Below, in pieces: positions 1,416-64,000 of a stretch of DNA of 64,000 bases (the first letter of the stretch is position 1; every line of letters starts with the position of its first letter). The notes under the pieces are model-generated. The model was not told the DNA's origin, made no database searches, and worked only from the letters and a program-made list of their open reading frames with translations. A program made the position numbers and the translations under genes. Source of the DNA: Polytrichum commune (taxonomy: Eukaryota > Streptophyta > Polytrichopsida > Polytrichales > Polytrichaceae); contig OX485804.1 of the NCBI GenBank assembly GCA_950295325.1, forward strand, positions 28,148,001 through 28,212,000. The letters are read 5' to 3'.

Positions 1416-1429
1416 ACTTCTAGGCACTA

Positions 1430-14805: not shown

Positions 14806-17800
14806 TTAGCCCATGGTGTAGGATTCAGATGGCAAGTTGATCACAGTGCTCTTGGTTTTCGTCATCATGTTGATGCTGTTGGTGATTCCTTGAGAACCAA
14901 TCCCACTGTCACGCAAGCCCTGCAGCAGACAAGGTAATAAGTAAATGTGCAGCCTGTAACGGGCACTTTAAACTAGAGAGTGAGGGTCCTGTGACCATTG
15001 CATACTAAAATCTCTCATTGGTGGACAATGACAAGACCATCCCACTTCAATTCACATGAGAGTGTAAGGGTCTGAGGGACACAGTATGTTTCTATAGATC
15101 AACAAACATTCATAAATTCCTACACAGCATGAAATAGATAACATTTCCTGGTCTATCATATGAAAGCAACAAGAACAAGAAACGAGAAACGAGAAACAAG
15201 AACAAGACAGTGGGTACTCCTTAAATAACATCTTTTACAAGCTATCGCCAACTTTTCAAATGTGTCCCTAGAAGTAAGCAAAAGTAAAGAACCTGGAAGG
15301 GGAAGTGGTCAGGTCCTCGAGCAGGTGCTGCATTGATTTGAATAGTTCCAGACTCCATGGCATCACTAATCATGATAGCCTTATCGATATTTTTTGTGAA
15401 GACGCAGCCCTGCAAAATTTCTTCATTCTGTCAGTACCAGATATTCCAAACAATGCTGTAAATGAACATAGAAAAAGATATGTAATCTTTGCATTAAACT
15501 AATTCACAACCCATACCCCAACTGTCACATGAGAATACAGATGTAAAACCAGAAAACTCAGAGAAAACTGGATAACACATCCCAACTTTTTGCTAAATAT
15601 GCTCCTGTCACATTTGAAAAGTGGTGATACTTGGGAGACCCTTTCTACAGCATGTTTATAGTAGTGACTTCTTACAAAAGATATGTACCTGAAGAGCAAA
15701 ATTGTTTGCATTGCAGTGATGGATCCCTTCTTCAACTGTCTTGATACGGAGGACAGGGATCACAGGTCCAAAAGGCTCCTCCCATGCAATTCTCATGTCC
15801 GGCCGTACATTATCAATAAGAACTGGCCAAATCAGGTTTCCTTCTCTCTTCCATTCCTGTTTGGCAGAAAGATTGTGCGAGGTGAGAGAATGAGGATCTA
15901 GATACAGATCATCAGCATATTTCTAACTACATTAATAAGGCACCAAACTCCCAAGACATGGGGACGACTGTGCTGTGTATGGAAAATGACATCCATACAA
16001 ACAAATAGCCTGCAGGTACACCATATTGTAGAGCAGGATAAACACCAGCTACAGATACTCACTGACATATATATAATTTTAGCACTATATCAAAGGATAT
16101 ATTCTGCTGAACTAGAGCCTCCTAGAATATGATTTCAAACGACCCTCTACTGTCTGGAATGCACAAAAACCCTTCTCATGAGCCAAATTTTGTGGACTAG
16201 AAGTAGATATCACGTTCTGTGCATCAGATTCGTAAGTTAATAACAATGTGTTCCAATGTAGTTGACCTGATTAATGTGTTCCAATGTTACAATGTGTTAA
16301 CAATGTATTCCAAATTCCAATGTAAGTTAATAACAATGTATTCAATGTGTTCCAATGCTCACCTGATGGAATTTGGCTCCCTTCTCCTTGGCATCTTTAA
16401 CAAGACCCTCAATGAAATTGGCTGATGACTCGCTAATGACAGGAGTAATATCACAATCTTTTTCGGGCATGCCCACTGTAAGCTTCTTCATCTTTTCAAC
16501 AACCTTTTTCACAAGCTCATCTGCAACAGACTCCATCACACATACAACCTTCACAGCTGTGCAACGTTGGCCACTGCATCAAAAAGCAACACTTGTTTTT
16601 AAGCTTGCTGGATAGTGAGACAAAATATTGAACCGAGGAAAATGAGTAACCTTGTGCTAAGTCCAGTAAACTGTACACCAAACAAGAGGAAAGACAATAG
16701 TTCTGCACATGACCTTGTGACTAAATGACTCGTCATGGGAATGTAAGATCAAATGAAGTAAGATCAAACGGTGGTACATGTGGATTCAATCTGAACCATC
16801 AATACCTGTATGAGTAACCGCCCTTGATAATATTGTTAGCAGCAAGCTCCAAATCAGCATCTTCAAGAACAAGACAGGTATCTTTCCCTCCAAGCTCCAT
16901 TTGAAGTGGAATCATTCCAGCTTTCTTTGAGATGGCAATGCCAGTGTCTCCTCCAGTAAAACTATTGACAACAATACAAAAATAGTTCACTTCAGTTAGA
17001 AGACATTAGGCAGACCTAGTACTATCCAGATTGTCCAATTCCTTGGACATTACTTACAGTGCCAGAATCTCAACTCTCAGGCAGTCTAGATATATGTTGA
17101 GCGCCCTAGAAAATTTACTGAGGATCACAGTCAGACGATCTAATGATTCAGGCAGGTTTGAAAGACAGGGGAGCAGGGCAGAATCACCTAATGCAATTAA
17201 CGCCTGGGTGTGTTGTCAGAAGATCTCCTATTTCTGAGCCCTTCCCAGTCACTGCACACACCAATCCTTTCGGAAAGCCTGCCATATGGAGGCAATGCAT
17301 CATGTGTAAGCATGAAACTGCACCCTGCAATAAAAACAAGCCATGTCGAGGTCATGACTAATACGAAGCATCCAAGTCTCCATGGGTGACATGTAAAAGA
17401 AATCTCTCATACAAGTGTACCAAGTCTTGAAAAATGAAGGACAAATTCAAAAAAACAGACAGTGGTATAGGAGTCACAAACTGCATTAGGAACTACATAG
17501 ACAATTCGGTGCAATTACTGGGAGGAGTCACTGGTCTCCAGATTTACTGTGAGTTGAACTATCTTCCAAAACTAGCTAAAGGTATCTTTTTGAATTTGTA
17601 GCTTGTCTCTGACTACAAAGATTCAATGCTAGTAAAAAGTAACCTCTTTGGAATTGGCGTGCCCCACAGAAATTGCACTGAAAAGTGTAATAGAAATGAG
17701 AAACGGAATGAGGAATCCTGAGGAGTCCATGACTGCATTAAAGTCACCACTTTCAAGAAGGCATTGTTTTTTAAAACAGATCAGCCATTGTTCGTTTCCC

Positions 17801-19163
17801 CTTAAATTTAAAACGATGGCCTCTAGCAGTGTCCAATTTGCAATGCTGGGCAAAATGTTACCTGAGTAGGAGGCTTCAGAACAACAGCATTTCCTGCTAT
17901 CAGAGCTGGTCCAATCTTGGACACAGCAAGATTCACAGGATAGTTGAATGGGGGAATTGCAAGAACCACTCCAAGAGGAATCTGCATATATAAAGAACAT
18001 CGTTTGAATAACTCCATTGTCTCCCAAACAACATTATCACTGCAAAATGGTGTTCAAATTATTATGATTAACGTCAAAAACAATGAATTCATGTGAGCCC
18101 AGATTGTTGCATTACCTTCGATGCCAGGCAGTACTTATTCCTGCCATTCCCAGGAAAACAATCGGAAACCAAGAACTTGCCTTCAGCCAGAATCCTGATT
18201 CCCTCCTCAGCTGCATAGGAGATGAGATCCCCAGACCGTACCACCTGCAGAGAAGAAGCTCACCTAAGATGTGGTCCCAATTATCAAATCCATCCAACCA
18301 AGGTGAGACATAGTCATTCTCAGACTAGGAAGTACATCCAGAATGTATGCATTCTGCTGTACGTGGTAGATCCGGCACAGACAGGTGAACTGACTGTTCC
18401 TGAGTGGTCACTCACTAGATGTTCACGCTGAACATATTATCACAGTTGCAGAAATGAATGCACTTCAAAAAGATCCTAGGAATGCCTAACAATGTAATGC
18501 ACAGGACTTCCTCATCGAAAATCACCTCAGTAATGGCATCCTTCGAGCACTTAGCAACTTCCTTCACAAGAGCATCTGCAATGGGTGCCTTCTGATCCTT
18601 CAAAATAGCCGCAAACCTGTGAAGAGCTTCGGCTCTTTTCCACAAAGGAGTTTTAGCCCAGAGCTTCTGGGCAGCTTTGGCGCTCTCCACACACTTATTT
18701 ACCTCATCCTGTGTGCAAGCTGCAAACGCACAAAGAATGCATTTATGATAGACGTATTTGACTACTTGAACCAGCAATTGGGTCAAGATGGAGAGAACGT
18801 TCAGAAGAGCTAAACTGCTTTGCTGGTAAATTGCGTTTTGGCAACCACTTAACGGCATCTGCGATGTAATATCTTCTCTTATCAAGTTCGACAACAGAAA
18901 GCTCGTCTCTATATATCGGGAAATCTCAGAGTACATTTGAAGCTAAAGATCTCTACGAGAATTGGACTTCTCGACCGGATGCATATTAAGGCACGTGAAT
19001 CAAGGTGTATCGGCACACCTTGCACTTTGTACGTCGGCTTCAGGTTGGAGGGATTGATGATGCCCACGGACTTGCCAGAGGTGGATACCTTCCACTCGCC
19101 GTCAACATAGTATTTGTACACGTCGCCGTCAATGATCTCCTTGAAAATTCCAGTACCAGCCAT
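14806..19163 (-). CDS. GAPN: NADP-dependent non-phosphorylating glyceraldehyde-3-phosphate dehydrogenase
   Basis: Irreversibly oxidises glyceraldehyde-3-phosphate to 3-phosphoglycerate with NADP+ in the cytosol, giving NADPH (ALDH11 family). Ten coding exons: 19163-19019, 18719-18526, 18244-18116, 17981-17862, 17324-17188, 16961-16806, 16573-16363, 15856-15689, 15409-15293, 14919-14806. All introns are GT-AG and phases agree throughout. The joined frame is 1491 nt, 496 residues plus stop, the usual plant GAPN length. It begins [19 protein letters not shown] and ends with TMG. Visible key residues: Asn169 in PPFNYPVN, Glu264 in MELGGKD and catalytic Cys298 in SGQRC, all at the expected positions. 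FTGGDTG and EEPFGPV are intact. An acceptor 4 nt upstream of the ATG implies a 5'UTR intron. No damage is seen, so I take it as functional. Confidence 0.97.
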
Positions 19164-31017: not shown

Positions 31018-32106
31018 GGGCTGCTTCACACACGAGACTGAGGACCCATGACCAGTACACTTCAAGCACTCTCATTGGTGGAAAAGGCGGAGCCAGTCCA
31101 AGTTCGCTTCTCACTATGCTTGAGGGACCAACGGAGACTGTGAATGCATGATGGATGAAAAGTCTACATGGATTCCTACATGGCATGGAATGGATCATGT
31201 TTCATGGCCATTTGGCCTGTTTTTCAAAAGCCACCTCTTGGAGGGAAGGGCCACTTCACACATGAGCCAAGAGCTGTGACCTTGTAATGGTGAGGACCCT
31301 TGACTCTCATCCAAAGGCCGTACCGTGGGTGTTGGGAAAGTTGTTTTATGTAGTCACGGGCCCTCAACCATAGTGTGAAGTGAGAATGGACCATGTTGCG
31401 GGATCATTGCATATTTTGTTCGTAGAAAAAGAGGGGAGGAATTGGCTCAATATAGTATGTCTTAATTTTTATCAATTTAAGAGAATTACTTGGTGGTGTT
31501 TGTTTGTCCTAGAATCTATTCTGGAATATGCCATGCCGTTTGTCATGTTGGAAAAAATATATTTAAAAAGTCATGGTCTCCCGGAATTTGCGTCAGGCCC
31601 AACTCCAAGAGGTGGGCCTGACGCAAATTCTGGGAGACCATGCACCCTAATCCACAACCTGCCATGTAGGACTCCATGTAGACTTTTCATCCATGAACTT
31701 TTCTTTGGGCATTTAGGCCTTCACCTCCTAGTGTGATGTGAACTTGGACGGTCTCCTCCTTTTCGACCAATGAGAGTTCTTACATTGCCATGGTCAGGGT
31801 CCTTTAGCCTTGTATGTGAAGTGGCCCTAAACCTAACACAAAACCGGGAGAGCATGGCACTCCAAACGCTCCTAGCCGTTGGTTTATTCTATTTTATCAT
31901 GCGTGAGGACCCGCATGAATAGAAATTCATTGAAAAGAGCACTTGGTGGAGGGCCCGGTCACATATGGCTTCACACTACACTTGAGGATCCGTGACCACA
32001 CTACATGATTTTGGAGGTCTCTTGGGACAACCTTTGGACACTTTCTTTTGGTTTGGGCTCTCACAATTTCATGGTCATGGCTTTTGGCTCGTGTGTGAAG
32101 TGGCCT
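31018..32106. mobile_element. Nested inverted-repeat elements with GGGCCACTTCACAC ends
   Basis: Two overlapping inverted pairs. Outer blocks 31018-31190 and 31655-31832 match in reverse complement (TTCACA, CTCTCATTGGT, GATGAAAAGTCTACATGGA). A second pair runs from GGGCCACTTCACACATGAGCC at about 31249 to its inverse ending about 32106. The ends resemble those at 27.7 and 35.5 kb. A snapback hairpin lies near the centre. No transposase. Confidence 0.55.
31572..31642. repeat. Near-perfect snapback hairpin
   Basis: Arms 31572-31601 and 31613-31642 are reverse complements over 30 nt with one mismatch and an 11-nt loop, the same design as the hairpin at 3.8 kb but unrelated in sequence. It sits inside nested MITE sequence. 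Confidence 0.8.
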
Positions 32107-36639: not shown

Positions 36640-38420
36640 GTAGGGTTTGGATAAGATCATCACATCCGTGCACTTGTGACCATTAACATCAATGTCTCGT
36701 CGGTTTTATTTAATATAAATGCGGATGTTGATTGCACATGAGCCGGTTACAGCTGTTGAATGTATCACATCATGGAATCCTCATGCATACTGTTAACACG
36801 CACATGATACGATATGTTTGTGATATAATTCAGTAGTCTGCAATTGCAAGGAACCGAGCCGCCGTTCGCTTTATCTGTGCATGTCATCAAGTGTTCGGGA
36901 GTTTCAAAATGTTTTTATTGGGCATCACTTCATCTTGTGCTGCCCATCGTTATAACTTTCGCACATCGATCAGCATGAGCGCAAGTACACTCTCATCAAT
37001 GTCCAATGAAGTATGTGCTAAGTTGTACGATTTGGATAAGATCTTTATATCCGTGCACTTCAGTGTGAGCAACATTGTTTCTTAGAATATGAACCATTCA
37101 TAAATGTGGAAGTTGATTGCACATGGTTGCACATGCATGCTCTCAACAAGCACATGATATAACATGTTTGTGATACAATTCAGTAGTAGTCTGCATTTGT
37201 AAGAAACTGGGACTTCCTGTTCGCTTCTGTGAATTTCATCAACTTGATATGGAAGTCATAGGGATTCCTACAAGGATTTAATGGGCATCACTTCATCTTG
37301 CTGCACATTGTTGTAGGCTGTGGATAAGATAATCGGAACCGTGAACCTGTGAGCATTAGCATTGTCTCGTACAAAATTGGATCATCTGTAAATGTGGAAG
37401 TTGATTGCACATGAACTGGTTACAGCAGTTGAATCCATCGCCTTTCACCCTCATGCATGCTATCAATCAACAAGCGCATGATACCGCATGTTTGTAATAT
37501 AATTCAGTAGTCAGTGATTGCAAGAAACTGGTCCCCGTTCGCATAATCTATGTATTTTATCTCCTTGATATGGAAGTCGTAAAGCGACCCACAAGGATTT
37601 AATGGGCATGACTTGATGTTGTGCTGCCCATTGTTGTAGGGTGTAGATAAGATCATCAGAGCCATGCCCTTGTGAGCATTAACATTGTCACTTGGAAAAA
37701 ATATTGTATATAACTATGGAAGTTGATTGCACATGAGCTGGTTATAAAAGTTGAATACATTGCCTGTAATCCTCATGCATCCTATCAATCAACAAGTACA
37801 TGATACCGTATGTTTGTGATATAATTCAGTATTCTGCAATTGCAAAAAAATGGCCCCTTTTTGCTTCTGTGTATTTCATCAACTTGATATGGAAATCTTA
37901 GGGCGTCCCATAAGGAATTATTGGGCATGGCTTGAGCTTGTGCTGCCCATTCTTGCTTCTTTTGCACTTTAGATCAGCATGAGCCCAAGTTCACTCTCAT
38001 CAATGTCCAATGGAGTATGTGCTAAGTTGTAGGGTTTGGATAAGATCATCAGAACTGTGCCCTTCAGTGTGAACAACATTGTCACTTAATAGAATGAAAT
38101 ATTCATAAATTGGAAGTTGATTGCACATGAGCCATTTACAGCAGTTGAATCCTTCACCTTTAATCCTCATGTTTTCTATCAACATGCACATGATACTACA
38201 TGTTTGTGATATGTTTCAGTAATCTGCAATTAAGAAAACAGCCCCTGTTTGCTTGATCTGTGTATTTCATCAACGTGATATGGAAGTCTTATGGAGTCCC
38301 ATGAGGATTTGATGGGCATGGCTTGAGCTTGTGCTGCCCATTCTTGCCTCTTTTGCACATTTGATCAGCATGAGCTCAAGTACACTCTCATCAATGTCCA
38401 ATGGAGTATCTACTTTTGCT
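36640..38420. repeat. Tandem array of about five 320-390 bp units
   Basis: The landmark ATATAATTCAGTAGTCTGCA recurs near 36822, 37172, 37495, 37819 and 38206. Other shared blocks are GTTGATTGCACATGAGC, GGATAAGATCATCA, CTCTCATCAATGTCCAATG and GGGCATGACTTGATCTTGTGCTGCCCA-like stretches. Units are diverged, so the array is old. It lies just upstream of the unknown gene at 38.9 kb. Confidence 0.75.
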
Positions 38421-38878: not shown

Positions 38879-41800
38879 GCTCTTGCAAGGCCGGTGTCCA
38901 AGGTTGGGTGGGATGCTAACCAGTTGCAAGACAATGCTGATGGGGTATTCAAGGTTCAAGCAAACAGTTCCCGGCCTCGTGGGTGCTTCTCATCACTTCT
39001 GTTATTGCCTTTCATGATGTGATCGGTATAAGCAATCATCAAACCCTAAAAATATGCTTAGTGAATTCTGAGCAACAGGGAACAGGGAGAATATGAGGAC
39101 AACCAGCTAAATCTTAAGTCTTCCAAAGTGAACCGGTTTTGTTGGGTAGGCAATCGGTTATGGTTAAAGAAAACTGCAAAATATTCTCTGTATCCTTTGA
39201 AAATGGTCAATAGTTGCCTATGGTCTCAAATTCTGAACGCTTTTTTTTGGCCATTTCAATCGGTTGACTTGTGAGTAGTTGCTGGTGCTCCCGTACCTAG
39301 CTGAGCACCACATGAGAATGGATTCATCACTGACATTGTCCTGAAAGCAGTGCCATCAGGTTTTCCTACAGGAATGAGGACTTAGTGAGATTTTAAGACT
39401 AATACAGTTATGTGGACCATGATTGCTCATAATGTCACTTTTTCTGGTGGAGAAGAATGAAGCAGTTCTTAACATAGAAAAGTGTGAGGGTTCCATCTCT
39501 TCTTGGTTCATCACACTTGAATGTAGAAGAAGGATTTTTGAGGGTTTCCCATCTCTTCTCAGTTCAATATGCTTGAAATGTGAAGAAGGTGACTCATGAT
39601 CTGGTGGATATGAAGCTTGCACTTCAAAAAAAAAATCCTGGACAAAAAGTGTTTGTTCACGTCATATTCCAGTGCAACTTGGAATCTGAGATATGTAATC
39701 AAATCTGATTTGAATAGCAATGCGTTTGGGGATTTATCAGCACAGGTGTCACAGGAGCACCAGACAGAACCAAACATGCAGATGAAGATGGTGAGTGTCA
39801 TGCTTTCATGTCAATTTCAAGCAGTTTACTACATTCCATATAAGCTTCTATTGTTAAAATGTGAGACCACATATCATGTTCCGAACAGGAAGCTACACTA
39901 GATAGTCCTATTAGTGTGGGCCATAGTAATCTTTAAAACCCATGTTAATTTTCAACCCATGCCAAAACTCTAGTTTATAAATTAGTGTGGGCCACATTAA
40001 TTTTTTTTTCTAGAAAATTGATGTGGGTTCCCAGTGGGTGACTATTTTATTTTATGCCACTTTCGTCCTTGAAGTAATACTCAAGGTGTTGGTCAAAAGT
40101 CTCCAGGAAGACTTAGGTGAAGACCTAGGGTCTTCGGTCCACTTTATTTCCACCCTAACTAGATGCTTAGTGTGGCCCACATTAACTATTTCCACATTAA
40201 TTTTCTACCCACACTAATAGGACTATCTAGTGTAGTGTCGTGCTTTGCATCCACGGTGATAGTGTTCAAAATCCTTGGAAATGTTGTCATCTCGTGACAA
40301 TGTAGAAGCAAAGCAAACTTCTCATTTTTAGTCTCTCTACTGCGATAGGGATTAATCTCAAATTGTGGAGAAGTGACAGGGACCATGGCGAAGGACCTGA
40401 GAGCTGTCTCTCTTTCCTTGACCGCATCCTTGATTCGTCCGCATTGGTCTCGGGGTCTAATCACTCCCCAAAGCCAACCTCCAACCTCCAAGAGTACAAC
40501 TTCTCTCTCTTCACTATCGTGTTCCTAGTCCCTAAATTCTCAAGAACCGTTTGCACTACAAATGTGGTTGTGGTTAACCACCAAAATCAACCACAACTGT
40601 CGTCTTCTCATTCACACTCAGACTGTGCAAATCCTTCAGACCTTGTACAGCCGCTAGCCCACGGACTTTTTGGGCTAGCGGCTAACCTAATAGCTAACAG
40701 TTATGGCTGAAAACGGTTCTCGAAAAAAATGGGCTAGCCCAGCTATGGCTAGATCGCGGCTTGAAAAATTATGGGCTAGCCTAGCTATGGCTAGATCGAG
40801 GCCTCAAAAAATATGGGCTAGTCCAGCTATGGCTAGATCGAGGCCTCAGATAATATGGGCTAGCCCAGCTAGTTATTAGCTAGCTAAAGATAAGTCATGT
40901 AACTCAATTGGCTCAAGCTAAGGCCCAGCCATGTCATCCCTACCACTACCATAAAATTTTTAGGGTTGAGATCATCTGTCCATATCCAAGTGCTTCCAAG
41001 TGCAACCGGTTACATGTTTACATCTTTTGATATGTCTTTACTCAAAGTGGGCTATATTCTCTACATTCCTCTAAAAAGATGGGTCGTTCTCTTGAAGTCT
41101 TGAACAAGAACTTCAACAAGTTCATTTTGAAACTCAACCAGCTCATCTGCAACTAGTAGCCGGAACTCTGTAAGTAGTAGCCAGATCTCTGTAACTGTAG
41201 TGGCGGGCGTAATCGAGAAACTTTACGATCTCATCCATGACGGTGTGATTTGGAAAACCATCAAGCGATTGGTGGAGAAGAAAGCTGAGGCGATCATATC
41301 CCTTCTCCCGGAGATCAATGCTGACCGCGGCCGTCTAGTCAAGCGTCGAAAGATAGCATCGGATCCTATAGCATCTAGAGCAATGTTGCAGGATCTCATT
41401 GGCGACGCAGTGCAAACCAGCCATGAGGAGAGTGAGGAGGTGGATATTGAACATGATCCGGTGGCCATGGTGGCGGCCAAGATACACATGTATTTCTCCA
41501 TCGCCAGTGAGAAATTCCCAGAATCTGGGAATTTGGTTAGTTGGTGGTGGAATGAACGATATAGAATGCCGTGTTTGGCGGAAGTAGCCGCCGCTTTACT
41601 AGCCTCCAAACCCGGATCGGGTGGGCTAGAATGTGACTTTGGCAGTCTAAATGATATCATTACTCCAAAGAGATCATCGCTTGGGGGAGGATTTGCAGAG
41701 GCATCAATGATGTTGAAGTTGAACAAACATCTAATGCCATACGATCCTGAAAAGTTGATCTTGTTGGATAATTCCGATTGGAAGAATCACATTCCCAAAC

Positions 41801-44800
41801 GCCCTATTTTCAATGAGGAGTTGCAAATAGAGGATGATGACAATTTGTTGGTAGAGTATGATGAGCAACATGTTTTAGATATTGATGAAGATGAGTGATT
41901 TTGACTGATATGAAATATAATTGTATTGATGACACAATGTCTCCTTGAATTCATTATATGAGCTACATGAATTAATTTATTAGGTCAGCTAATCCAACTA
42001 TATGGCTAGAAACGGTACCCGAAAAAAATGGGTTAGCCCAGCTATGGCTAGATCGAGGCCTCCCAAAATATGGGCTAGCCCAGCTATGGCTAGATCGAGG
42101 CCTCAAAAAATATGGGCTAGCCTAGCTATGGCTAGATCGAGGCCTTAGAAAATATGGGCTAGCCTAACTATGGCTAGATTGAGGCCTCAAAAAATATGGG
42201 CTAGCCTAGCTATGGCAAGATTAAGGCCTCAAAAATATGGGCTAGCCCAGCTAGCTAATGGGCTATAAAAGGTGTGAAATCCTTGTGGTTGACGGTAGCA
42301 TCGGTCTTCCAAATCACAATCTATCATTGGTTAAGGTCTTGGACTTGAGAAGAGATTAAAGTGATTATTATCCTTCTTGACCTTGGATTGGATTATAGTG
42401 TTGAAGCGGTTGCCTCTTTCTCCCCGGACCTTGGCCTTAAGACTCTGTAGTGGTGCCACATGAGCATGAACAACCACCCTAAGGATGGTTAAACACACGG
42501 AACAATGGGGGTAGAGAATGGTTGTGGTTGTGGTTAGCATTTGTTGTGCCTTTTCCATGGAAATAGAACCCAAGAAATTAAACTACATGACAACCACAAC
42601 CACCCCTAGTGTAAATGACCCTTGACAAGATTGCCTTGAGTCTTGTAAATATATTCAACGGTGTGGTGGCACCAATTGCACTTCAAATCAGTCGCGTCTT
42701 TTTGGTAATTAAGAGTGCCCAAATACCATTCATTGGGTTTACCCTGAAACTTTCAGGTTGATCCTAGAACCTGAAACATATTTGAGAGTAACAGTAGAAA
42801 ATCATTTGCAATTTCCTACTAAATTATGTTAGGCAATAAGTTTCCAACTAATTTTCATCCTCTCATTGTCTTACCGTCTGAGAACACATGATTACAATCT
42901 CACTACGCCAAAATCTAGTGATTTGTTTATCTCCTCATGATTCCTTAATATGCAGTGCTTGCTTTTTAGGAGCACTCATTTGAAAATTTTATACCGGAAC
43001 GCTATTAAGGAAATTGTGATGATTCTTTTGATGTTTATAATCTGTTTGGAGTATTCGAGGTTACATGAATACTTCAATGCTAAAGCTGTGGTCGTAAAAC
43101 CATTTGCCACTGTCGTGGAGAACAAATTTTCAACCCATGAGCCCCAAATGTTTGCTTCATTAAATTTGCAGGGAAAGCTTTTTCTCATTCTAGTATTCTA
43201 GAAGACAATTCTCAAGATAATTTTTGATTCTTGTCAATCTTGTCATGATTCCATCACTTTCTGGGTTCATCTATTGGAATGCTCACAGAAACTCAAGATA
43301 TTCCAGAACTAGATGATGGGCTGGACACTGCAAGGGAGGTACCTATTGCCAATACCCTCCATGAATTTTCATAGACTATACCAGCTGAATAATGATATCA
43401 ACCTTTGCCTACAAGCCCTAATCTTTTAAATATACAAGAATGTCAAGGCATAGTCTTCAATAAGCAAAACCAATAACATGAAGGCCAAAAGATTGCTCAG
43501 CGCATGAAAAACTGAAGTGAACTGTGCAGGTTGCTGTTCCACCCAAAATTTCAGCGCAAAGGGTCCCAGCCATGAGGGATTTGGGCAACAATATGCCATT
43601 TATATTGCCATACATTCACGTGAGTTTTTTAACATGTGTTACCAATGCTAACATGAAGATTCTGACCATCTCGGAATCCTGCTCTAAATTGATTTTGTTT
43701 TTTTATTCAATAAATATAATCATGACTAAGCAGGTTTATTGTGGCTAAAGTATGTCATGATTGTCTTAACAGGATGGCAACATTGATCTTAGACCTCTTA
43801 TATGTCATCTTACACCGGTTTCTCAGGTAGTTTCCAACAATATTGTCACAATTTCGTTTAGTATCTATGTGGAAAGCTTGAACTAAGTGAATTTTGCATA
43901 ACTAGATAGATACAGGCATGCGTAGGTGACGATGGATAATCAGCTGGACTCATAAATAATAAATATGTAAACATGCAGATGAGATCTGTCACTATTAGAG
44001 GAACAACAAAGATGAGCATATGGAACTTCTAATCGACGTGTGCATATTTGCACTGGTAGAACAAGGGGTGGCTTGAACCCAAGGCCTTAACCTGGATCCC
44101 ATTGGAACTCAAGGTTAAGTGGCCTAAGGTTGGAATAGTGTTTGGATGGGTGACCCTCCTAGCACTTGATTCTGGTGCACCCTCCCATCTATGATCCACC
44201 CAATCATAGTGGGGGTATTTGGGTAAATCGGATATTTTCAACAAATCATGTGGGAACCCAGGGGCTTGCCCTTGGGGGAGATAGGTTCTGGCTAGCTTGT
44301 CTATGCACGTTCGAGGTGTGCACCTTCAGAAGGAGGCAATAGTCGTTGGGGCCCCTCTAATTCTCGTAATGCCCATTTCAATATTACATATAAATTTAGA
44401 CCAACTTGAAAATGAGGCAACACCATAATTCACGCTGGTGGCAACATTGAAGTCGTCTTTCTATGGTAGAACACAGTGAAAGTGTGTGTTAACATATGTT
44501 GCTTGTGAAATCACTATTTTATTGTTGTAACCTATGTTGCGGCTGAATTCCATATCAAGTAATCTTTGAAAGTTTGTGTGTACTGAAAATGTCATTTTAC
44601 ACTAGAGCATAGTTTACAATACATTTTTGGAGCTTGGCTTTGGGTGATGTAGTGTATAATGTGGCGTGAGCTTTCCCTTGAACTTCGGATCCAATTGTGT
44701 ACAATTAGTTCAAATTTGATGGGAAGGTGGCACTATGTTGCAGGTGATTGAAGACGATGAACTGTGGGATCCTGACATACTTCTTAGAGAGGTAATCAGC

Positions 44801-46171: not shown

Positions 46172-48539
46172 TCAAATTCCAGCCCATTGTCTACTAGCGT
46201 TCACCCATCCAACTCCCTTCAACACCATATCTCGTAAAACGCCTCGCAATCCAGTACCATGAAGCATGTCAGTAGCTTGTTTGGATAATCTGGAAGATTT
46301 AAATCCACGTTCAAACAAAAGCTTTTCGTAGTCAGGAATTCCTGTCGTGATGACATCAGTGTCTTTGTGCTTCAAGGCTTCCACCAGATCATGTGCATCT
46401 TGAAACGCAATATTTGCACCAAGCCCGCGATGGGGGGTCATGGCATGTGCAGCATCCCCTAGCAGTGTGACGCGCGTGGTTTTGCCGAGTGGAGATACAT
46501 TCTTCTTGGTGGGTACAACCCATGTAAGAGATCGAGCTCGCAAACCGTAACCTTCGGAAGGTGTTTCTTGAACTAGTGCTGCGTATTCGACCCCTTCGGC
46601 ATTAAATACTTCACCTGCAAGAGAATCTATCTCCTGTTGGCCCATCAACCACAGTGACTCAATCCATCAGCGCACTCTGCCATTGGACTAAACCTTGAAA
46701 GACTCGCCATGAGACATCTAGATCTCTTAAAAACACACTCTCAAAAGCAGGTGTCAATGACTACCCTAGTTTGGCATCCTAGCCTGAGATCTTTAGCAGA
46801 ACCTCGAATAGGTGCAACCAATGCACGGGAGTACTGACTGCTAGTTACAGATGAACCGGTTCAGTTTGGAAAATAACCGGTTAAATTTCAAGATTCAGGA
46901 AAATTACCGACGAGTTTGAAAAAATCCATAGAATATACCTCAGATGAACCAAGAAAAACTGAAAGATCACAATATGCAACCGATTGGACTTGGAAACATT
47001 AGAATTTCGGTTGATTATGCCCCAAAACATCCCCGTACACTGGCTGCAACTCTCCCCGTTAAAGCAGCTGTTTCTGAACCACTTCTAATGCTTCTAATAA
47101 ATTCTTGAATTTCTTTGTGGACAAAAAGGGAGTGAAACATGCTTGGAGAGAGGGCGTTGAGAGGAATCCATTAAAACCATTTATGTCTAAAATAGAAAAC
47201 ATCCAGCTGCCTTTGTAAGAAAACAATTCACAAACAATTCCTAGAGTCTGTAGTGTTAAAAAAATGCTAACAACATGAAAAAAAATCCCGGAAAACCAGT
47301 GCTTTTTATGAATGTGTTAACTTAACAACTCCAAACCATGTTCTGAAGTCGCCGACCCTCCCCAACATCAATAGGTACACTTTCAATCTGTTGCAACTGA
47401 GATTCCGACAAGTTTGTGCCCATTCTGAGCTTGTGGTAGCAACCAATGTCGGACCGGTATATAGGTGAATGGCATGTAATAATAATCAACATCGATAACA
47501 ATGGTGTTAAAGAACCTACCTGTGGGTGTCAAATTGTCATACCAGTCAAGTATTGATGTTTGGTGGGATGTCAAGCTGAGAGAATCTTTGCATACCCAAG
47601 TTATTATTTAGGTTAACACCATTCTAAACCATATTGCAGATACTAGGACGGTTTTGCCGCAGTCTGAAACTCTCGCACGGCATATACATAGACCCGGATG
47701 GTATCGAAAACAAAAACAGCGTCAAATACCCATAGCAACAACTGATCTCTTACCGGTTTGAGTGTTTCGGCGTCGGTGGGCAGATTGGGAGCCACATGCA
47801 GAGGGAAGCTGTAGGCCCAGAAGAACATTTCCTGCCCCGAAGTTCCGTCGAATTCCATGAGCATGAGGCAACTTCCTTTGGCCCCCATACCGCGCACGAA
47901 GTGGGAGCCCTGGAGTAGATCCACAAGTCTCGGCATCTTGGCCTTCAAAGCAGGAGTGGCAGCCACCGAGGCCGCCACCACCTGCACCGCGACTTCCTCC
48001 AGCTTCATATCGGGGCAGCGTTGGGATCGGACCCGCGACTTGGCCCCGTCCGCTCCGACCAACATGTCCCCCGTGGCTTGCGTCCCGTCCTTGAAGTACG
48101 CCGTCACATTGGTCTCGGTCTCCTCGTACCGCTCGAACATTTTCCCGTACTCCACGCTCACACCCGCCACCAGGGCGTCGCGGAGCCCCCACCTGTTGAC
48201 GACGCCCACGATGCTGGCGTTCGGGTTGGACGGGTCGTCCTTGATGGACATCATGAGCTTCAGCTTGCTGTCCACCATAAGCCCTCCTTTGGGTTTAGGT
48301 TCTATGGCTCCCAAGAACTGCACAGCTTTGGGAACGGAAGCAAGCGCAGATTGGCCGGAGCGGTTGATGCCAATTCGGTAGCCCTGTGCACGCTCCCCGG
48401 CCTTAGGATCCCGCTCGAAAACGATCACTTTGTACTTGTCCGCCACTGAGGAGTTTTGGAGAATCTGAGCAAACGCAAGCCCGCCGAGACCTCCACCAAT
48501 AACAAGGATGGTTTTGGGTGGTGGTGGTGGTGGCGCCAT
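46172..48539 (-). CDS. Class A FAD-dependent monooxygenase (aromatic hydroxylase-like)
   Basis: Two exons: 48539-47754 and 46633-46172 (donor CCG/GTAAGA, acceptor CAACAG/GAG, phase 0), giving 415 residues plus stop, normal for the family. Start ATG 48539-48537 gives MAPPPPPPKTILVIGGGLGG. Three family signatures are intact: GGGLGG (15-20) for FAD ADP binding, GADGAKSRV (162-170, the DG motif) and LLGDAAHAMTPHRGLGAN (319-336, the GD motif with the FAD ribityl site). It would use NAD(P)H and O2 to hydroxylate a small, probably aromatic, substrate; the substrate cannot be read from the sequence. There is no signal peptide or membrane anchor. Reading past the donor would end after a short unrelated tail at 47643. 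GC-rich codon use in exon 1 contrasts with the AT-rich surroundings. Confidence 0.88.
46845..47010 (-). repeat. Dispersed AACCGGTT-type repeat inside the monooxygenase intron
   Basis: Reverse-orientation copy with GATGAACCGGTTCAG, AATAACCGGTTAA, GAATATACCTC and ATGCAACCGATTGGACTTGG. It lies in the 1120-nt intron. Confidence 0.45.
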
Positions 48540-50620
48540 TTTGTGCTCCAGGAGATCGCCAAGCGAGCGATGGCTGAGCTTGAATTGATCTGCACAGACG
48601 ATGGATCCACCACAAGTAAATTTCAGATGAGTCAGCTGAGAGTCAGTGAATTTATTAGAGATTCTTGTGCTCTCGGCAACCTGGTACTTCACCCGAAACC
48701 GCAAATTCTCTAGATGGACCTTTACTTTTCACTACAACATGACGATATGATGCTCGATCCTTGGACATAGGGGCAGAGCGAAAAGGCATTCATTCATTCG
48801 ACTTGACATAACTCAAGACATCAAAGTGTCGAGTGACCACATCAATTTGACACTTTTTCCAAGTTTTAAATAGTGAAAAAATTTGTCGAGATCAAAGGCA
48901 TCAGAAACTAAATCAATGCTAGGCGAAAAATGTCTTTCAAATTATGACGCTGTCGAATGGACAGGAAAAGAATCAGGAGTCGTGCAGAACATCAACTTTG
49001 TGACTCGACGAGAGAAGATATATATATATATATATATATACATAGTATTCGACGCAGTGAGAGTTTGACGATCATGGCGATTCGAAATCTGTCTAAACAT
49101 ATCGAATAAACGTGTCGAATGAGCAGCCATGTACACAAATTGTAACTCGTGAAACTCACCCAAACTATGCACTCGCTCAATGCCCTTCTCTACAAGGGAC
49201 AATCGAAATCGAGGAATGAAACTGCAGGACTAAACTCACGCGACTAGCAAAATGTTGGACTAAAAGATGACAACTTGAGCTCCAATTTGAATCGCGCACA
49301 GGTGATGACCAATTCCACTGCATTTCGCAAAAAAGGAAGACCCATGGGAACACACTATATATATTGGCTGACACATGTGAACCCGAAACACTCTAGACCC
49401 TCCAGGTCCACGATCTTCACAGCACTGAACCAACTAATCTTACACAGAGAAGCTGCAAGCATGATGCATGAAAAAACATGGCAGTTTGAGTCTAACTGCA
49501 GGGCCAATAAACCTTGAAGGACGTTAATTAAGCTTGAATAAGCTTAACCTAGTGTGAGTATGCGGAAGTGGGAGAAATTAAGAGGGTGAGTAGATTGCCT
49601 GGTTTTGTGTAAGTTCTAATAAATCGCTCCAGCTGGGTCTACATATTATGACATCTGCGCTGGAAATCTGTGACAGGAATGATTGGCACACTGGCGATTC
49701 TTATAGAGCTTGGCGATGGGGCGGCAGGACGGAAGGTTCCTGTCACTCAGCTCCCAAAGTTCCTGGATACTTCGCACCTGCGTTCCAAGATCGTCTTCAC
49801 CGATTTGGGTCACTCCTCCGGAGCTGTGACTGAGAATGTGCCATGCGTCGACGCGGGTAGGCTCGATCTGAGCCGTTCGATCCATCCAGGCCCATCTAGC
49901 GGCCTGACTGATCCGAGGTGGCATGAATGAAGCTGAAGGACCGGGCACATGGCGTTGGCTTCCACAGCCTAGGCGGCCCTTGACAGACCTGGGCTGAAAT
50001 AGTAAAAAAAGAAAAAGAAAAAGAATTGAACGTAACAGTTCAAAAGGTTGGTTTTGAATCGTTGCATTACATGTAGGCAATGTGTTTATTACGTTGGGGG
50101 TAGAATGGCCTTATCAACTAAAATGAGCCAATTGGTCTGCTTAATTTAATGTAGGGAACATGATGGGAACGTAATGATTGTTAGTTGGTACGAGAGAATA
50201 CCCGTTGAGGGTTCTTAAAATACAACTCAACCATTCCAATACACCCACACATGTTTATAAAACCATGCAAATAATCAATTGTAATATGGAAAATCTCATC
50301 AATTGTGACAAAAGGATTGTCTCATAATGACCCAATTGGTTCATTTTAGTTGATAAGGCCATTAAAATACATTCTACGTTTTACTACATTTTGTAGCCTG
50401 CGCGGTGGCTTGCCTTGGTTGTAGTCAATTTTTTGTTGTGTTGTACAGTTGCTTGCCCAACCACCCTACTTCCCCAACAATTAAAAAACAGTTGCGGGGG
50501 TAGCAAAGTTGGGCCATGTGCCCAACCCTTGACGTTACCAACAAATTTTGAGGTGCACAGGGTTGAGACCAAATCCACCCATGTCCAAACTTTCTCAATT
50601 AAGGTATGCAAGTGATATGC
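48540..50620. other. Intergenic; 5' flank of the monooxygenase
   Basis: Contains a (TA)n run at 49019-49041. A GC-richer block at 49.65-50.0 kb is open in several frames on both strands but shows no domain. The monooxygenase promoter should lie within the first few hundred bases; no element could be placed. Confidence 0.4.
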
Positions 50621-57282: not shown

Positions 57283-60200
57283 ATGGAAGAAACTCTGTGT
57301 TCAGTGCGCGTTGATCATGGATATGATGATACTCTAAGCCCTAATTTGGCAGTCCAGGAGCTAATTTCCGAATCCAGGACGAAGAGGCGAGGGAGTGTGA
57401 TCCTCCTCCTCCTCGCCGCCTGCTGCACGGCTGCTGTGTGGTGCTTAGGTGTAAAGGAATTTCGACAGCCTCTTGGAGTCAGAGACGATGTCACTTTGAG
57501 TGATGCGGAGGAGTCCAGACCGCAGCATTACCAATCCGCATTTCATTTCCAGCCTACCAAAAACTGGATGAATGGTATGGAATTTGGATCGATACACAGC
57601 TACAATTTCCCAAGTAATGCATATCTTAGAAAAATTGTGATGATAGAATCATGAAATACAACTCTGCAAGGCTTCAAAATTCTAGATTAACCACATGCAC
57701 AATGTGGAAGTACATGAAATGAGATGCACATACAGTAGTAGCTTCTACCCCTAATTTTGATCGATACACGGCTACAATTTCCTAAGTCATGCATGCTTCA
57801 GAAACATTGTGATGATAGAATTATGAATTACAACTCGGCAAGGCTTCAAATTTCTAGATTAACCACTTGCAGAAGAGTGGAAGTATATGAAATGAGAAGC
57901 ACAAAGAGTAGTATCTTCTAACCCTAATTTGGATTCTCCTCGGAATTTGACATGAGTTGGATTGGATGCCTTCGACTTCCTCCTACTCCGCAGATCCCAA
58001 CGGTGCGTTTCTTCTTTCATTTCATTTATGCACAGAAATTTTCTTTGTCCAGATGTGCAGTGGTTTTGTTTTGTTTGCTATGGAGTGCACAGTGGTGGTG
58101 AGCTCTGGCTCAAACTTGCAAGTTTGGTGAACCAACGTAGTAGAAGAATCTGAGCCCTTATGTGCCTCCAATGGTGGAGCTTTGGCTCCTCCCTTTTCTG
58201 GATTGATTTATCAGTTCAAGCCCAAACATGAACTTGTTGTCATCAGGTTAGAAATTCTACAGGGCAAGCCCAACCGTTGCCACCATATCCACATAACAAC
58301 TCCTCCCACATCCTCCACTTTTTGCATTTGCGAAGGCGGGGACAGCGCATTCTCCCACTCCGAGGGGAAATAAGGACATTAACTGTTCGTCTCATTATGT
58401 TTGTGGCGAGTTTTAAGTGGCTGCAAACGGGCTCGGTTTGTTGGAAAATGTGGATGAGCGTATCCGCTTTTCGCAAACATTTGCGGATACGGCAGTGGAA
58501 GGGAGCCCTCACCGCAAATTTTCCCAACACCATGCACTTTTCATCTATAATCTATGTTTGCTATGTGCATACGGCAACGGGTGGGCTTGCACATGTTCAC
58601 GTTCAGGCTTGAAATTGGATATCAAAAACTACCAACCTTGAGACAAATTTATCTTCAGCTTCTTAGGCACATGTTAGGGCGCTTGAGATTCGTTTACCTT
58701 GGCCTAACCAAACATGCAAGCTTGAGGTTGAGCTCAAGTAATTTGTGTGTGGCAAACTCATGAGCAGGGCGAATTCTTTGTTGTTCATATGCGCATTGGC
58801 TTGTTTCTTTCTAGAATTGCATAGTTTTGAGGCTGAGCTTCATATGTTGGTGGTGAGCAGGACCAATGTACTACAAGGGATTGTATCATTTGTTCTACCA
58901 GTACAATCCAGGAGGAGCTGTTTGGGGGAACCTGACCTGGGGTCATGCAGTGTCAAAAAATCTCATTCACTGGCTTCATCTTGAGCCGGCTCTGCTTCCA
59001 GATTGCTCGTATGATGCTGGAGGGGTGTGGTCAGGTTCGGTCACTTTTCGCCCCGATGGCACACCCATTATTCTTTATACAGGTAGTCACTTTTGGCTTC
59101 TGTTTTCCTATTGTAGGGTTTTGTTTTTGTCTGAAATAAGTAAGAGAAAAACAACTCCGATGTTGCCACCGGCATGAATTGTGGTGTTGCTTTATTTTCA
59201 AGTTGGTCTAAGTTTACATGGAATCCCGAAATGGACATTACGAGAATTAGAGGGCCCTGCAGACTGGTGCCTCCTTTTGAAGGTGAACACCTTGAACGGC
59301 TGTAGACAAGTCGATTGAGGTCTTACTACACATGTGTTGCAACAATTTGCTTTAGTCTTCCCATTACCTCTGGAGATCAGTAGCAAAAACTCAAGACAAG
59401 AATCCTTGTCAGGAACTGATGAAGTTTCATAAGTGGGGATGTCGTGAAAGGTGGCTTCTTCCATGGAGATAGATTGTTGTGGATGACCCCTGCTCAAATG
59501 GCTATTTCCGCATGCATGATTTGATGTTTCTATTCCATTCTAGTTTCTGATTCCTTCCTTTCATACGCTTCACATTGAGTATGTAAATCTAAAAGCTTGA
59601 GAATAACTACCTTTCAAGATTATTATTATAATGATTCGCTGAAATTGATGGCATCCAATCTGAGTATCTATGTTCAAACAACACTTACAGATGAGACAAT
59701 ATCCTTGTAAGTAACCTGGATGTAATGTTGAGGAATTAAAGGATACCATCAATTTACCTATATTGCAATCCGCGTATTTACTTTGATCCTCCTCATTGCT
59801 AATGCTTCCACAATTTGGGACAAATTACAGGCGTGGCCGATGATCTGGAGCAGACACAAAACATGGCTGTCCCAGAAGACACAAGTGATCCATACCTCCG
59901 CAAATGGATAAAAGTCCCTGAAAATCCACTCCTCCGGCACCCGGAAGGTGTGGGCAGGGAGGAATTCCGAGACCCCACAACTGCATGGCAAGTCGATGGT
60001 GGCTCGTGGCGAATTGCCATCGGAGTCCAATTTGGAACAAACGGATCAGCGTTGCTTTACAAGAGCGACGATCTTGTCCACTGGGAATTGAAGGAAATCC
60101 TCCATACAGTCCCCAGGTCGGGAATGTGGGAGTGCTTGGACTTCTTTCCGGTGGCATTACATGGGGAGGAAGGCTTGGATGTTTCAACTCATGGAGACAA

Positions 60201-63200
60201 GCATGTCTTGAAGGTGAGCTCATTCGACGACAAGCGTGATTACTATGCGGTTGGTACTTACAATGAGGTTGGTGAATCATTCACTCCCGACCGTCTGGAC
60301 CTTGACGTAACTCGTGGTTTGCAATATGACCACGGGAAGTTTTATGCCTCAAAGTCATTTTACGACCCAGTGAAGAAACGGCGTATCAATTGGGGGTGGT
60401 CCAATGAATCAGATACGGCAGCTGAAGACATTGCAAAAGGATGGGCATCACTCCAGGTAATAATAACCAGCGTTGTACTGGTATCACCCTTTTTTTAATT
60501 AGCACTTAAGTATCGATATATTGAGGGTTTGACATTGTTCTATACCAGTAGGGTCTGGATATTTGATTATCTTGGGCCAAAGATTTGTGCCACTCAAGTA
60601 AGTTGATCATGAAAACGACTGGAATCCTTATAGCTTGGAGATTTCGTTTTAAAGCACATTTGACCCTGAAATTATCATGAGACCCTGAAAGTAGTCTCGT
60701 GAGATCAAGTTGGGATGAATCAACCATAGACCTATAAGAAGAGGTTTTCACTGGACCTCCTTACTTGAGTGGCACCAATCTGAAGCCATTTTTTCATTTT
60801 TGTTACCATGCGGGTCTATATACCATCCAAGAACCTTCGTAGCTAGGTAAAAATTACCCTTAAGTATCATTATGGTAGGAGGATGGTATTGACCCAAACA
60901 ATGACTTGGGTGATTCTTTCACCTTGTGATACCCACCAAGCATCAACATCTGACGTGTATTACAATTCTGGTACTGGTCGGGTAGGTTCTTTGATACCAT
61001 TATGGATATTGTGTATTGCTATCATGCATTCACGTATATACCTTCAACATTGGTAATAACTTTAATCACAAATGTAAGGCTGCTTTCATTGGATTCAAGA
61101 CATAGATCCGTTGTCAGGAACTGATGAAATCAGTGGGGATGGATGTTGTGAAAGGTGGCTACATGCAGCTAGATTGTTGCGGATGGACCCTGTTCAAATG
61201 CTTTTCCCCAATTCAGCTATTGCCACATGTGTGATTTGTTTAATTATCTCATTCTATTTTTTGGTTGCTTCGTATTGAGAATGCAACATTAGTTGGAGTA
61301 ACTATGCTCTGTTGATTCTTATGTTTTAATGTACTGGGTACCTTTATATGTTTGCACATCGATACTTGCAAGGAATTATTTCATTGATCACCAAGGTCAG
61401 GTTCTGACTTTCTGATGTGAATCTGCAGTGCAGGCCATACCAAGGACATTGTGGCTTGACAACCAGCTAGGGGATAACCTCATACAGGCTCCTGTTGAGG
61501 AGCTGAAATTGTTGCGAGGTGCAAAATCGTCAATGGAAGAGGTGGAATTGGAGGCAGGCAGTACTATCAAAGTTGAGGGTTCCTCTGGAGGGCAGGTGAG
61601 ACCCAGAACACTTTTATGTATGCAAAGGTTAAAATTGATGATGCGTTATGGGTAATCCACAAAAGAACTTGAGGCAGTTGACCAATTCACTTAAGACCCC
61701 TATCCCGGATCCCATGGAATTTTCCGAGGTTAAGCCGCCTAAGGCCGGAATAGTACTCACATACCCTACCACCTATGATCCACCTAAAAATAGTGTAGAT
61801 ATCCAGATGAACCAGGTGTTTTCTACCAACTATGTGGGAACCTAGAGGCTGGCCCTTGGGGAATATGAGTGCCAGCCAGTTTGTCCATGCCTCTTCAAGG
61901 CATTTACCTTCAAGAGGAGGCAGCAGTGTTTGGGGCCCTCAAATTCTCATAATGACCGTTTCAGGATTACATATAGACTTAGACCAAGTCAAACATGAAG
62001 CAACATCATAATTCACACAAGTGGCAATACTGGAGTTGTCTTTCTTTCTTAAAGGCACTACGGTACTCCTTAGTGACTGTGGTTATGTATGTGCAGCTGG
62101 ATATAGAGGTCATGTTCGAGTATCCAAACATGTCCAAAGTGAATATTGACAATGTGAGTTATCTCAACAATCCGATAAATTGTAGTGAAAGAGGATCAGC
62201 GCAACAAGGTATACTTGGACCATTTGGGCTATTGGTGATGGCAGATGATGCATTGCAAGAGCAAACTGCAATCTTCTTTTACTTGTCTCAATCCAACAAT
62301 CGAAGCTGGGTTACGCATTTCTACAGTGACCAGAGCAGGTAATGTGAGGCTGTATAAACTAGAGTTTTGTACATTTCTCGAAGTTTGGTTGTACATAAAC
62401 TAGTAGGAGATGGGGTCTTTTCGACATGCCCTGATTGACACACTGTCATCTTGGACCCGTCTGTAACATCAGCTTTTGTCCCAAGAGGTTGAATTGGCAT
62501 ACTTTTGACACCAAATGTGGCTTGTCAATGGGTCCTAGGCGTCAAATGGGCCGTGTCAAAAAGGTATGCCTCTGGAGTCTGGAAGTTCTGATTACAGAAA
62601 CACCATATGGTTATTTGCAGAAATGAGATTTGCAGGTTGGAACTCTTCCTAGAGTCCAAACTGATTGACTTGGGTGTTGTATTTGCAGGTCTTCTTTGTT
62701 GACAGATGTTGACACCACTGTGTTCTGGAGCGACTTTCGTGTCTTGCCTACAGAGAACTTCTTATCTTTACGTGTGCTGGTAAGTCTCTTCTCCATGTTT
62801 TGAGACCCCAAAGTCGACTACCTCATGCTTAGTCCACCAATCTTAACCCCCCTTCGCACTAGAGCTTCACACGAGACCCCTTGCAATTTTCAGGAGTTTG
62901 ATACTTGGAGTTGACAAGTTTCCGTCCAAAGTTCAAACTATTGACACCTTGACCTTGAAATATCAAGTGGAAATGAAAAACAAGGAAGCATTTATGACAA
63001 GCTAAAGAATGCTTGAAAAGCCCATTGGCTTGGGGCCTACAAAACGAGAGCTTGAGCTCTCGACATTCCCAGGCTACCTCATGGAGGTAGTGCAGGATTT
63101 TGACCAAGAGCTTCTCAAAAAGGACCAAGAGCTTGTCGTAGTTGTTTCACATGGGATCCATCAAGGCACCATCTCAGCATTGCAAGTTTAGTAAAAAGGT

Positions 63201-63995
63201 CAAACTCCCAAGTTGAAAGCTTAAATGTAGAGTGGACTTAAGTGAACATGCATGCATAAGAACCTCATGTCTGCCAATGAGAAGGCTCCTTTTCTTTGAG
63301 TATCAACCTCTCTAATGGAAAGGGACCTCAGATCCAAAGTTCAAAATTCGGTCTCTCTTGGATATTTGTTTCATGGGTCTTCTTAGCACTTGATTTCCAG
63401 TGCACCCTACCACCTATGGTCCACTCAATCATAGTGGGGGTATCCTAGTGAACCGGATATATTCAACCAACCATGTGGGAATCTAGGGGCTTGTCTGCGC
63501 CCATTCCTGTTCACCTTCAAAAGGAGGCAGTAGTTTTCGGGAGCCTTATAGTTCTCGTAATGCCTGTTTTGGATTTACATCTGGACTTAGTCCAACTTGA
63601 AAATGAAGTGACACCATAATTCATGCCGGTGGCAACATCGGAGTTGTCTTTCTTTCTTTTCTTCCTAGGTGAGAATCCACTCTGCTCAAATGACACACTA
63701 CCTTCTGTGGTTGGTAAGAAACAAGTCTAGTCAAGTTGGGGTAATGTCAGGGCATGGATGAAACATCCTAGTATTGGAGAAAGTTATGCTGAGAGTGGTG
63801 ATTCAGCTTGTTTTAAGGTTTTAATAACTTTGATTCTATTACCAACCTGATTTCTGTTTTCAGGTGGATCACTCAATTGTAGAATCCTTTGTGCAAGGAG
63901 GGCGGATGGCAATTACATCTCGCATTTATCCAGTAAAGGCCGTGAATGAGCAAGCTCATGTTTACCTCTTCAATAATGGCACCACTCACGTCAAG
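57283..63995 (+). CDS. Acid (vacuolar-type) invertase, beta-fructofuranosidase; 3' end outside window
   Basis: Hydrolyses sucrose to glucose and fructose; GH32 family. Exons: 57283-57574, 57994-58002 (9-nt mini-exon), 58861-59082, 59831-60456, 61434-61595, 62097-62338, 62689-62779, 63864-63995; all junctions are GT-AG and the frame closes at 592 codons, with the final exon beyond the edge. A basic N-terminus followed by a hydrophobic anchor (about 38-57) is typical of vacuolar invertases. WMNDPNG (95-101, nucleophile Asp98) is split by the mini-exon. FRDP (220-223) supplies the transition-state Asp222. WECLDF (274-279) carries acid/base Glu275; most plant enzymes have V or P where this has Leu277. 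VDHSIVESF lies in the C-terminal beta-sandwich. No frameshift is seen, so it appears functional. Confidence 0.95.
57581..57925 (+). repeat. Tandem duplication in invertase intron 1
   Basis: Two copies of about 172 bp (57581-57752 and 57753-57925), each beginning AATTTGGATCGATACAC or close to it; a third partial start follows at 57926. The first unit starts 6 nt after the exon 1 splice site. Confidence 0.8.
57994..58002 (+). other. 9-nt invertase mini-exon
   Basis: CAG/ATCCCAACG/GTGCGT. With the last G of exon 1 and the first bases of exon 3 it gives Asp-Pro-Asn-Gly of the catalytic motif. Mini-exons of this size at this place are known in plant invertase genes; without it the reading frame loses the nucleophile. 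Confidence 0.92.
58259..58592. mobile_element. MITE in invertase intron 2
   Basis: Left end GGGCAAGCCCAACCGTTGCC near 58262, inverted right end GTGCAAGCCCACCCGTTGCC near 58590. Related by GCAAGCCCA ends to the element at 30.25 kb. Non-coding. Confidence 0.6.
59391..59586 (+). repeat. Segment duplicated between invertase introns 3 and 4, copy 1
   Basis: Shares CTTGTCAGGAACTGATGAA, GTGGGGATG, GTGAAAGGTGGCT, AGATTGTTG.GGATG and TATTGAGAATG-type blocks with 61094-61287 in intron 4, same strand. Confidence 0.65.
61094..61287 (+). repeat. Segment duplicated between invertase introns 3 and 4, copy 2
   Basis: Counterpart of 59391-59586, equally long and in the same orientation. Either an old intragenic duplication or two insertions of one repeat. 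Confidence 0.65.
61705..62050 (+). repeat. 5S-related retroelement, copy C, in invertase intron 5
   Basis: Begins CCGGATCCCATGGAATTTTC (61705-61724), then GAGGTTAAGC (61726-61735) and GGAATAGTACT, following the order of plant 5S rRNA; the GATGGGTGACC box has been lost. The shared body and TTTCTTTCTT tail follow, ending 46 nt before the exon 6 acceptor. Confidence 0.65.
63370..63661 (+). repeat. 5S-related retroelement, copy D, in invertase intron 7
   Basis: Contains only the last part of the 5S-like head (CATGGGTC, TAGCACTTGATT) and then the full shared body with the TTTCTTTCTTTT tail. Same strand as the gene and as copies A-C. Confidence 0.6.
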
Positions 63996-64000
63996 GTGAG

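Follow-up and report, generated by a model that had tools for sequence, protein, structure and literature searches.

A probable SINE family with 5S rRNA-like heads in the genome of Polytrichum commune

The repeat family observed in the 64-kb window (the whole stretch of DNA that was analysed) is probably an old, non-autonomous SINE family of about 400 bp, with a head derived from 5S rRNA that would hold an internal RNA polymerase III promoter and with a LINE as the likely agent of its mobilisation. A BLAST comparison of the copies with the window exposed five members, four on the forward strand and one on the reverse strand, which are designated A to E.

1145-1414, forward strand: copy A, 5'-truncated, with a TTTCTTTCTTTCTT tail (BLAST and nhmmer, E 1.3e-73)
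44064-44463, forward strand: copy B, full-length, 400 bp, with a 5S-like head, a body and a short TTTC tail
61680-62050, forward strand: copy C, 5S-headed, with a TTTC tail (nhmmer E 9.6e-117)
about 63387-63659, forward strand: copy D, 5'-truncated, with a TTTC tail (BLAST and nhmmer, E 8.6e-87)
59143-59310, reverse strand: copy E, 3' half only (BLAST and nhmmer, E 1.9e-57)

The 5' limit of copy C was placed by its offset from GGATCC, that of copy D is uncertain between 63358 and 63387, and the likeness of copy A to copy D sets in at about 1135. The initial annotation had listed four same-strand copies, and these four do share a body, with BLAST E values of 4e-55 for B and C (75% identity over 284 columns), 3e-48 for B and D, 4e-31 for A and B and 5e-20 for A and C; the count was nevertheless one short, as copy E lies on the minus strand, where it matches B with 82% identity (E 3e-39) at 59145-59310. 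An nhmmer profile was built from all five copies and then run against the window; it recovered B at 44064-44464 (model positions 1-369, E 2.5e-121, with B itself in the profile), and no sixth copy in the window passed E 0.05, the next match having an E value of 0.056. Pairwise identities range from 68 to 82% in all ten pairs and K2P distances from 0.21 to 0.45, and the copies are accordingly regarded as old. At plant neutral rates between 6.5e-9 and 1.5e-8 per site per year, these distances correspond to roughly 7-35 million years per branch.

The likeness to 5S rRNA is located at the very beginning of the full-length copy.

44067-44182, forward strand: 5S rRNA-like head of copy B (Rfam RF00001 and pairwise alignment)

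This stretch aligned to positions 1-120 of the Rfam 5S_rRNA model (RF00001) with 27.0 bits, which is below the gathering score of 38, and with E values of 0.0052 in a search of 1.4 kb and 0.24 in a search of the whole window; the model did not match copy C at any E value up to 10. Local alignments were also made with a plant 5S gene as reference, which aligns well to the Rfam consensus. Copy B matched positions 27-118 of this gene with 64 identities, 27 mismatches and 3 gaps, and copy C matched positions 28-79 with 39 identities, 12 mismatches and 3 gaps; 5S positions 1-26 lie outside both pairwise alignments, and the position called 5S position 1 in copy B rests on the full-length Rfam alignment. 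B and C scored 59 and 42 against the plant gene and 48 and 44 against the Rfam consensus, respectively, and 0 of 1000 dinucleotide shuffles scored as well for either copy against either reference. The initial annotation had read 5S sequence at the head of these two copies, with a similarity no better than that of shuffled sequence as grounds for dropping the idea, and the reading is borne out by both references. The motifs on which it had relied were likewise all located, with GGATCCCAT at 44094 (B) and 61707 (C), GGTTAAG at 44113 (B) and 61728 (C), both motifs being found at other places of the window too, and a perfect GGATGGGTGACC at 44144 in B, where it matches exactly once in the window.

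The Rfam score below the curated threshold could be held in favour of a tRNA-headed plant SINE, or of another non-autonomous repeat, whose resemblance to 5S arose by chance. The shuffles argue against such a coincidence in two copies and with two references, and ARAGORN found no tRNA in the window (a bacterial-code run, which could miss degenerate heads), so that a chance resemblance is very improbable. Moreover, a scan of the window on both strands in overlapping tiles gave scores above 30 only for tiles of B and C, the best score elsewhere being 30. The body of B, used as a control, is unlike 5S (139 of 500 shuffles as good). The reverse-complemented Rfam consensus gave nothing for B and C (498 and 702 of 1000 shuffles as good, respectively), and with the reverse-complemented plant 5S gene 708 of 1000 shuffles were as good for C and 25 of 1000 for B, where the score was 23 versus 59 in the forward direction.

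The heads of B and C carry common departures from the 5S gene. In the alignment of the two copies with 5S, B and C agree against 5S in 16 columns, only B departs in 9 and only C departs in 9; in the remaining columns all agree (31), all differ (7) or gaps occur (9). Because 16 columns are common to both copies against 5S, the simplest reading is that a single modified 5S was ancestral to both heads, as opposed to two separate 5S insertions. Copy C is without about 31 nt of the head, box C included. The short upstream parts of A and D showed nothing beyond chance against plant 5S (515 and 941 of 1000 shuffles as good, respectively), and longer, degenerate 5S heads were not accepted for these copies, as 82 of 1000 random stretches scored as well as the one in D and 226 of 1000 as well as the one in A. 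A composite or head-swapped family, in which an older SINE or the 3' fragment of a LINE and a 5S pseudogene came together in one source copy while most copies stayed without the head, would agree with a clear 5S head in only two of the five copies (B and C) and with A and D beginning near the same place. However, the changes against 5S that are common to B and C argue that the head was already present in a common source, and 5' truncation accounts for A, D and E; a composite origin is therefore considered unlikely.

Two sequences resembling the promoter boxes of 5S genes are observed in the head of copy B.

44113-44124, forward strand: sequence of copy B that resembles box A and precedes box C by 18 nt
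44143-44155, forward strand: box C-like sequence of copy B, which contains GGATGGGTGACC, the sole exact occurrence in the window

Relative to the published Cassandra patterns the two boxes show 3 mismatches in all, and they are separated by an 18-nt gap, 18 nt also being the published spacing of boxes A and C in the 5S part of Cassandra (PMC7215508). A head that comes from a 5S rRNA gene would provide an internal, type 1 promoter for RNA polymerase III, consisting of box A, an intermediate element and box C, and transcription would begin at about 5S position 1 and proceed through the 5S part and the body of about 280 bp into the (TTTC)n tail. Read-through past the end of the 5S part of B is possible, to judge from its sequence, because no T-run, and hence no natural 5S stop, is present there and the sole T4 run of this copy is in the body. 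At least one TTTT, a possible pol III stop, is present on the RNA strand of all five copies, and in C one of these is within the head. RNA folding of B was uninformative (z=-0.86).

The further course of the proposed mechanism would depend on the tail, which a LINE reverse transcriptase would take up, copying the RNA into nicked target DNA by target-primed reverse transcription; target duplications of about 10 bp would result, along with copies that are often 5'-truncated and agree in their 3' end. For the partner, an RTE-type LINE is at most a fair guess, because LINEs of this type end in short tandem repeats, without poly(A) (PMC10741241). Pfam scans of 20 protein entries (19 different) from stop-to-stop frames of the window contained no reverse transcriptase.

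The starts of the copies vary and their 3' ends coincide. On the nhmmer profile the five copies start at positions 1, 4, 74, 79 and 202 and all of them end at 369-372, and the common 3' end reads GTCTTTC in B, C and D, GCCTTTC in A and GTTTTTC in E. At least two TTTC units follow in A, C and D, against a single unit in B and a degenerate end in E. The body of about 280 bp that had been ascribed to the four copies of the initial annotation is indeed common to them, whereas the (TTTC)n-like tail described with it holds for A, C and D but not for B, with its one unit. Target-site duplications had been proposed for inspection but overlooked there, and the direct repeats that flank B and A are as follows.

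44054-44063, forward strand: left target-site duplication of B, TGGTAGAACA, exact 10-bp repeat
44464-44473, forward strand: right target-site duplication of B, TGGTAGAACA, separated from the last TTTC by 2 bp
1133-1144, forward strand: left direct repeat of A, AACTTCTAAGCA, 11/12 identical with the right one (p=0.0022)
1415-1426, forward strand: right direct repeat of A, AACTTCTAGGCA, 11/12 identical with the left one

The limits of B were set independently of its flanks, the 5' limit by Rfam 5S position 1 (44067) and the 3' limit by the final base of TTTC (44461), and the left repeat ends 3 bp before 5S position 1. With position constrained, 4000 random intervals gave p=0.0022 for the duplication of B. 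The repeat of A is ambiguous, as its left arm overlaps D-like sequence and may be partly element, and that of D (TCTTCTTAG/TCTTCCTAG, 8/9, p=0.0235) is doubtful, as its left arm aligns with the 5S part of B; the boundaries behind the p-values of A and D were set after inspection, and the combined p of 4.5e-5 was not relied on. C and E have no convincing flanking repeat (p=0.16 and p=0.39, respectively). A clear target duplication is thus present in one of the five copies, B. An earlier scan with other boundaries, in which the 3' boundary of A was too far out, gave p=0.0026 for B, 0.15 for A and D, 0.35 for C and 0.80 for E, and an unconstrained, wider scan gave 0.039 for A and B, 0.47 for C and D and 0.97 for E.

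The 3' flanks of A and C (1415-1432 and 62051-62063) have AGGCACTA(A/C)GG in common right after the tail (p=0.002 for the pair, with 10 pairs tested), which is unexpected for independent insertions and may represent a target preference or an element end running past the tail. The starts of A and D fall close to one 5S position, and the left repeats of both copies (1133-1144 and 63378-63386) resemble each other as well as that 5S stretch, a likeness that may reflect either junction microhomology or a truncated subfamily. A tandem or dimeric arrangement was rejected, the lowest p being 0.155 when the 3' flanks of all five copies were compared with the head of B and 0.060 (C and D) for the 5' flanks of all five.

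The initial annotation had left the choice between a plant 5S SINE and solo LTRs of Cassandra. A Cassandra-type TRIM, left as solo LTRs or as pieces of LTRs and moved by the enzymes of LTR retrotransposons, would account for 5S boxes at the 18-nt spacing used in Cassandra searches and for the size of the element, which is near that of a Cassandra LTR, about 200-400 bp (PMC10853983), and Cassandra is widespread in vascular plants (PMC7215508). Against this, the published query of box A, box C and PBS gave 0 matches on either strand of the window, both for exact matching and when at most 3, 2 and 3 mismatches, respectively, were allowed. The PBS TGGTATCAGAGC (Met-tRNA) had 4 matches within two mismatches, none of them exact, with 4.7 expected by chance. 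In the 1.5 kb on either side of A, B and E (only 1144 bp to the left of A) there is no second copy at E 0.01, and to the right of D this search for paired copies stops at the end of the window. A distance of 1.3 kb separates C from D, which are on the same strand, but sequence of an invertase exon (62097-62339, with a PDB match) lies between them, as part of the following gene.

58857-64000, forward strand: GH32 invertase-like gene, whose exon stretches have invertase, fructosyltransferase and fructan exohydrolase as best PDB matches

Because this exon sequence stands between them, and more of it follows at 63864-63998, C and D are read as two separate insertions in introns. The 5S part of B forms the 5' terminus of the element instead of lying within an LTR. 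Copy B has the ends AGGGG and TTTCTA and a 10-bp duplication, whereas Cassandra makes 5-bp duplications and has TG...CA ends; the duplication TGGTAGAACA itself begins with TG and ends with CA, and it is absent from the other copies. Cassandra LTRs were rejected on the missing PBS and pairing within the window, the ends and the duplication length, and this origin has only a small probability. The plant 5S SINE is the alternative favoured, because of the 5S sequence at the 5' end of B, the common 3' end with varied starts, the 10-bp duplication and the fact that neither a PBS nor paired copies were found in the window. The features by which SINE3 elements are recognised agree with this choice, as a 5S-homologous head stands at the 5' end of the element in B and C, type 1 pol III promoter boxes are present in B for A and C, with box C absent in C, and a simple-repeat tail accompanies the common 3' end in A, C and D.

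The window resembles plant nuclear DNA, with the GH32 gene and its introns in the 58.8-64 kb part; the matched PDB entries for invertase, fructosyltransferase and fructan exohydrolase are presumably from plants. Three of the five copies are located between exon stretches of this gene, C and D in sense and E in antisense orientation, E being between two of the earlier exon stretches. Exon stretches of an aldehyde dehydrogenase gene (15659-18053, reverse strand) and of an FAD-dependent monooxygenase-like gene (46175-48728, reverse strand) were also observed. Other repeats of the window include two tandem arrays with an identical 42-bp unit, about 1.2 kb apart (40719-40871 and 42022-42253), and tandem repeats that overlap one another and have long units, of 322 and 391 bp (37143-38409). 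Matches to microRNA models below gathering, found on both strands at 3814-3885 and 31567-31648, mark near-palindromes, perhaps MITEs. Besides the 5S match of B, Rfam on the whole window (E up to 1) returned weak microRNA-model matches and one viral-element match, which have no bearing on the family.

Fishes, mammals, insects and a fungus are known to have SINEs derived from 5S rRNA (PMC8010984, PMC5063351, PMC3747384). The moth elements PxSE4 and PxSE5, of the SINE3 type, have a comparable 5S head with boxes A, IE and C (PMC8010984). They measure 389 bp, with a head identity of about 63% to 5S, as compared with 400 bp and 64 of 91 aligned bases in copy B, and both families end in a simple-repeat 3' tail, which is (TGA)n or (ATGT)n in the moth and (TTTC)n here; their host is an insect, and they are described with 4415 and 1952 copies and with empty sites (PMC8010984), whereas the present family comprises five copies in one window, with no empty site. 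AfuSINE3 of Aspergillus fumigatus likewise has a 5S-related head, with a length of 259-343 bp and all copies but one without the 5S terminator; its host is a fungus, and it is likened to the plant family by description and not by alignment (PMC5063351). The Cassandra TRIMs of vascular plants are similarly short and non-coding and have 5S boxes A and C 18 nt apart (PMC7215508, PMC10853983). In contrast to them, the present family has no LTR pair or PBS found in the window, its 5S part is at the 5' end in B, and a (TTTC)n tail and a 10-bp duplication are observed. The tRNA-derived plant SINEs, such as Au, p-SINE1, ZmSINE and TS, resemble it in their short length, simple 3' tail and plant host but have a tRNA head in place of a 5S head and tails of (T)n or (A)n, with no (TTTC)n among the seed-plant rows listed (PMC3747384). 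SINEX-2_CR of the green alga Chlamydomonas has a (CTTT)n tail, the same repeat in another phase, with the promoter listed as unknown and the LINE RandI as partner, the likeness being one of table entry and not of sequence (PMC3747384).

Plant SINEs are characterised in two reviews as "derived from tRNAs" (PMC9033089) or as "nearly all" tRNA-derived (PMC10741241), and Maiwald et al., writing on Cassandra, cite SINEs "in animals" for such promoters (PMC10853983). No plant 5S SINE appears among the open-literature matches listed, in which the subjects of 5S SINE reports are fungal, insect, fish, amniote or general (Repbase and SINEBase being outside this scope). A plant SINE with a 5S head is therefore provisionally regarded as likely new, with a design known from animals and fungi. 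Pattern scans of viral contigs and of bacterial and archaeal genomes, as well as distant blastn of phages and plasmids, exposed no relatives, which is expected because the family is a plant repeat and plants lie outside those scans.

Tentatively, land plants may have 5S-headed SINEs of their own, independent of the animal and fungal SINE3 elements, and of the class that has been postulated as donor of the 5S promoter of Cassandra. Such a family would be an actual instance of the step that has been suggested for the origin of Cassandra, the insertion of a SINE3 into an LTR (PMC10886601), whereas according to a competing proposal 5S rDNA was taken up by an LTR element located beside an array (PMC10853983); the choice between the two proposals would be testable by which plant lineages have 5S SINEs. 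Searches based on the A and B boxes of tRNA could miss a family of this kind, and AnnoSINE has a 5S class (PMC8825457). If the plant 5S-headed family is real, the range of promoter types mobilised by plant LINEs would be wider.
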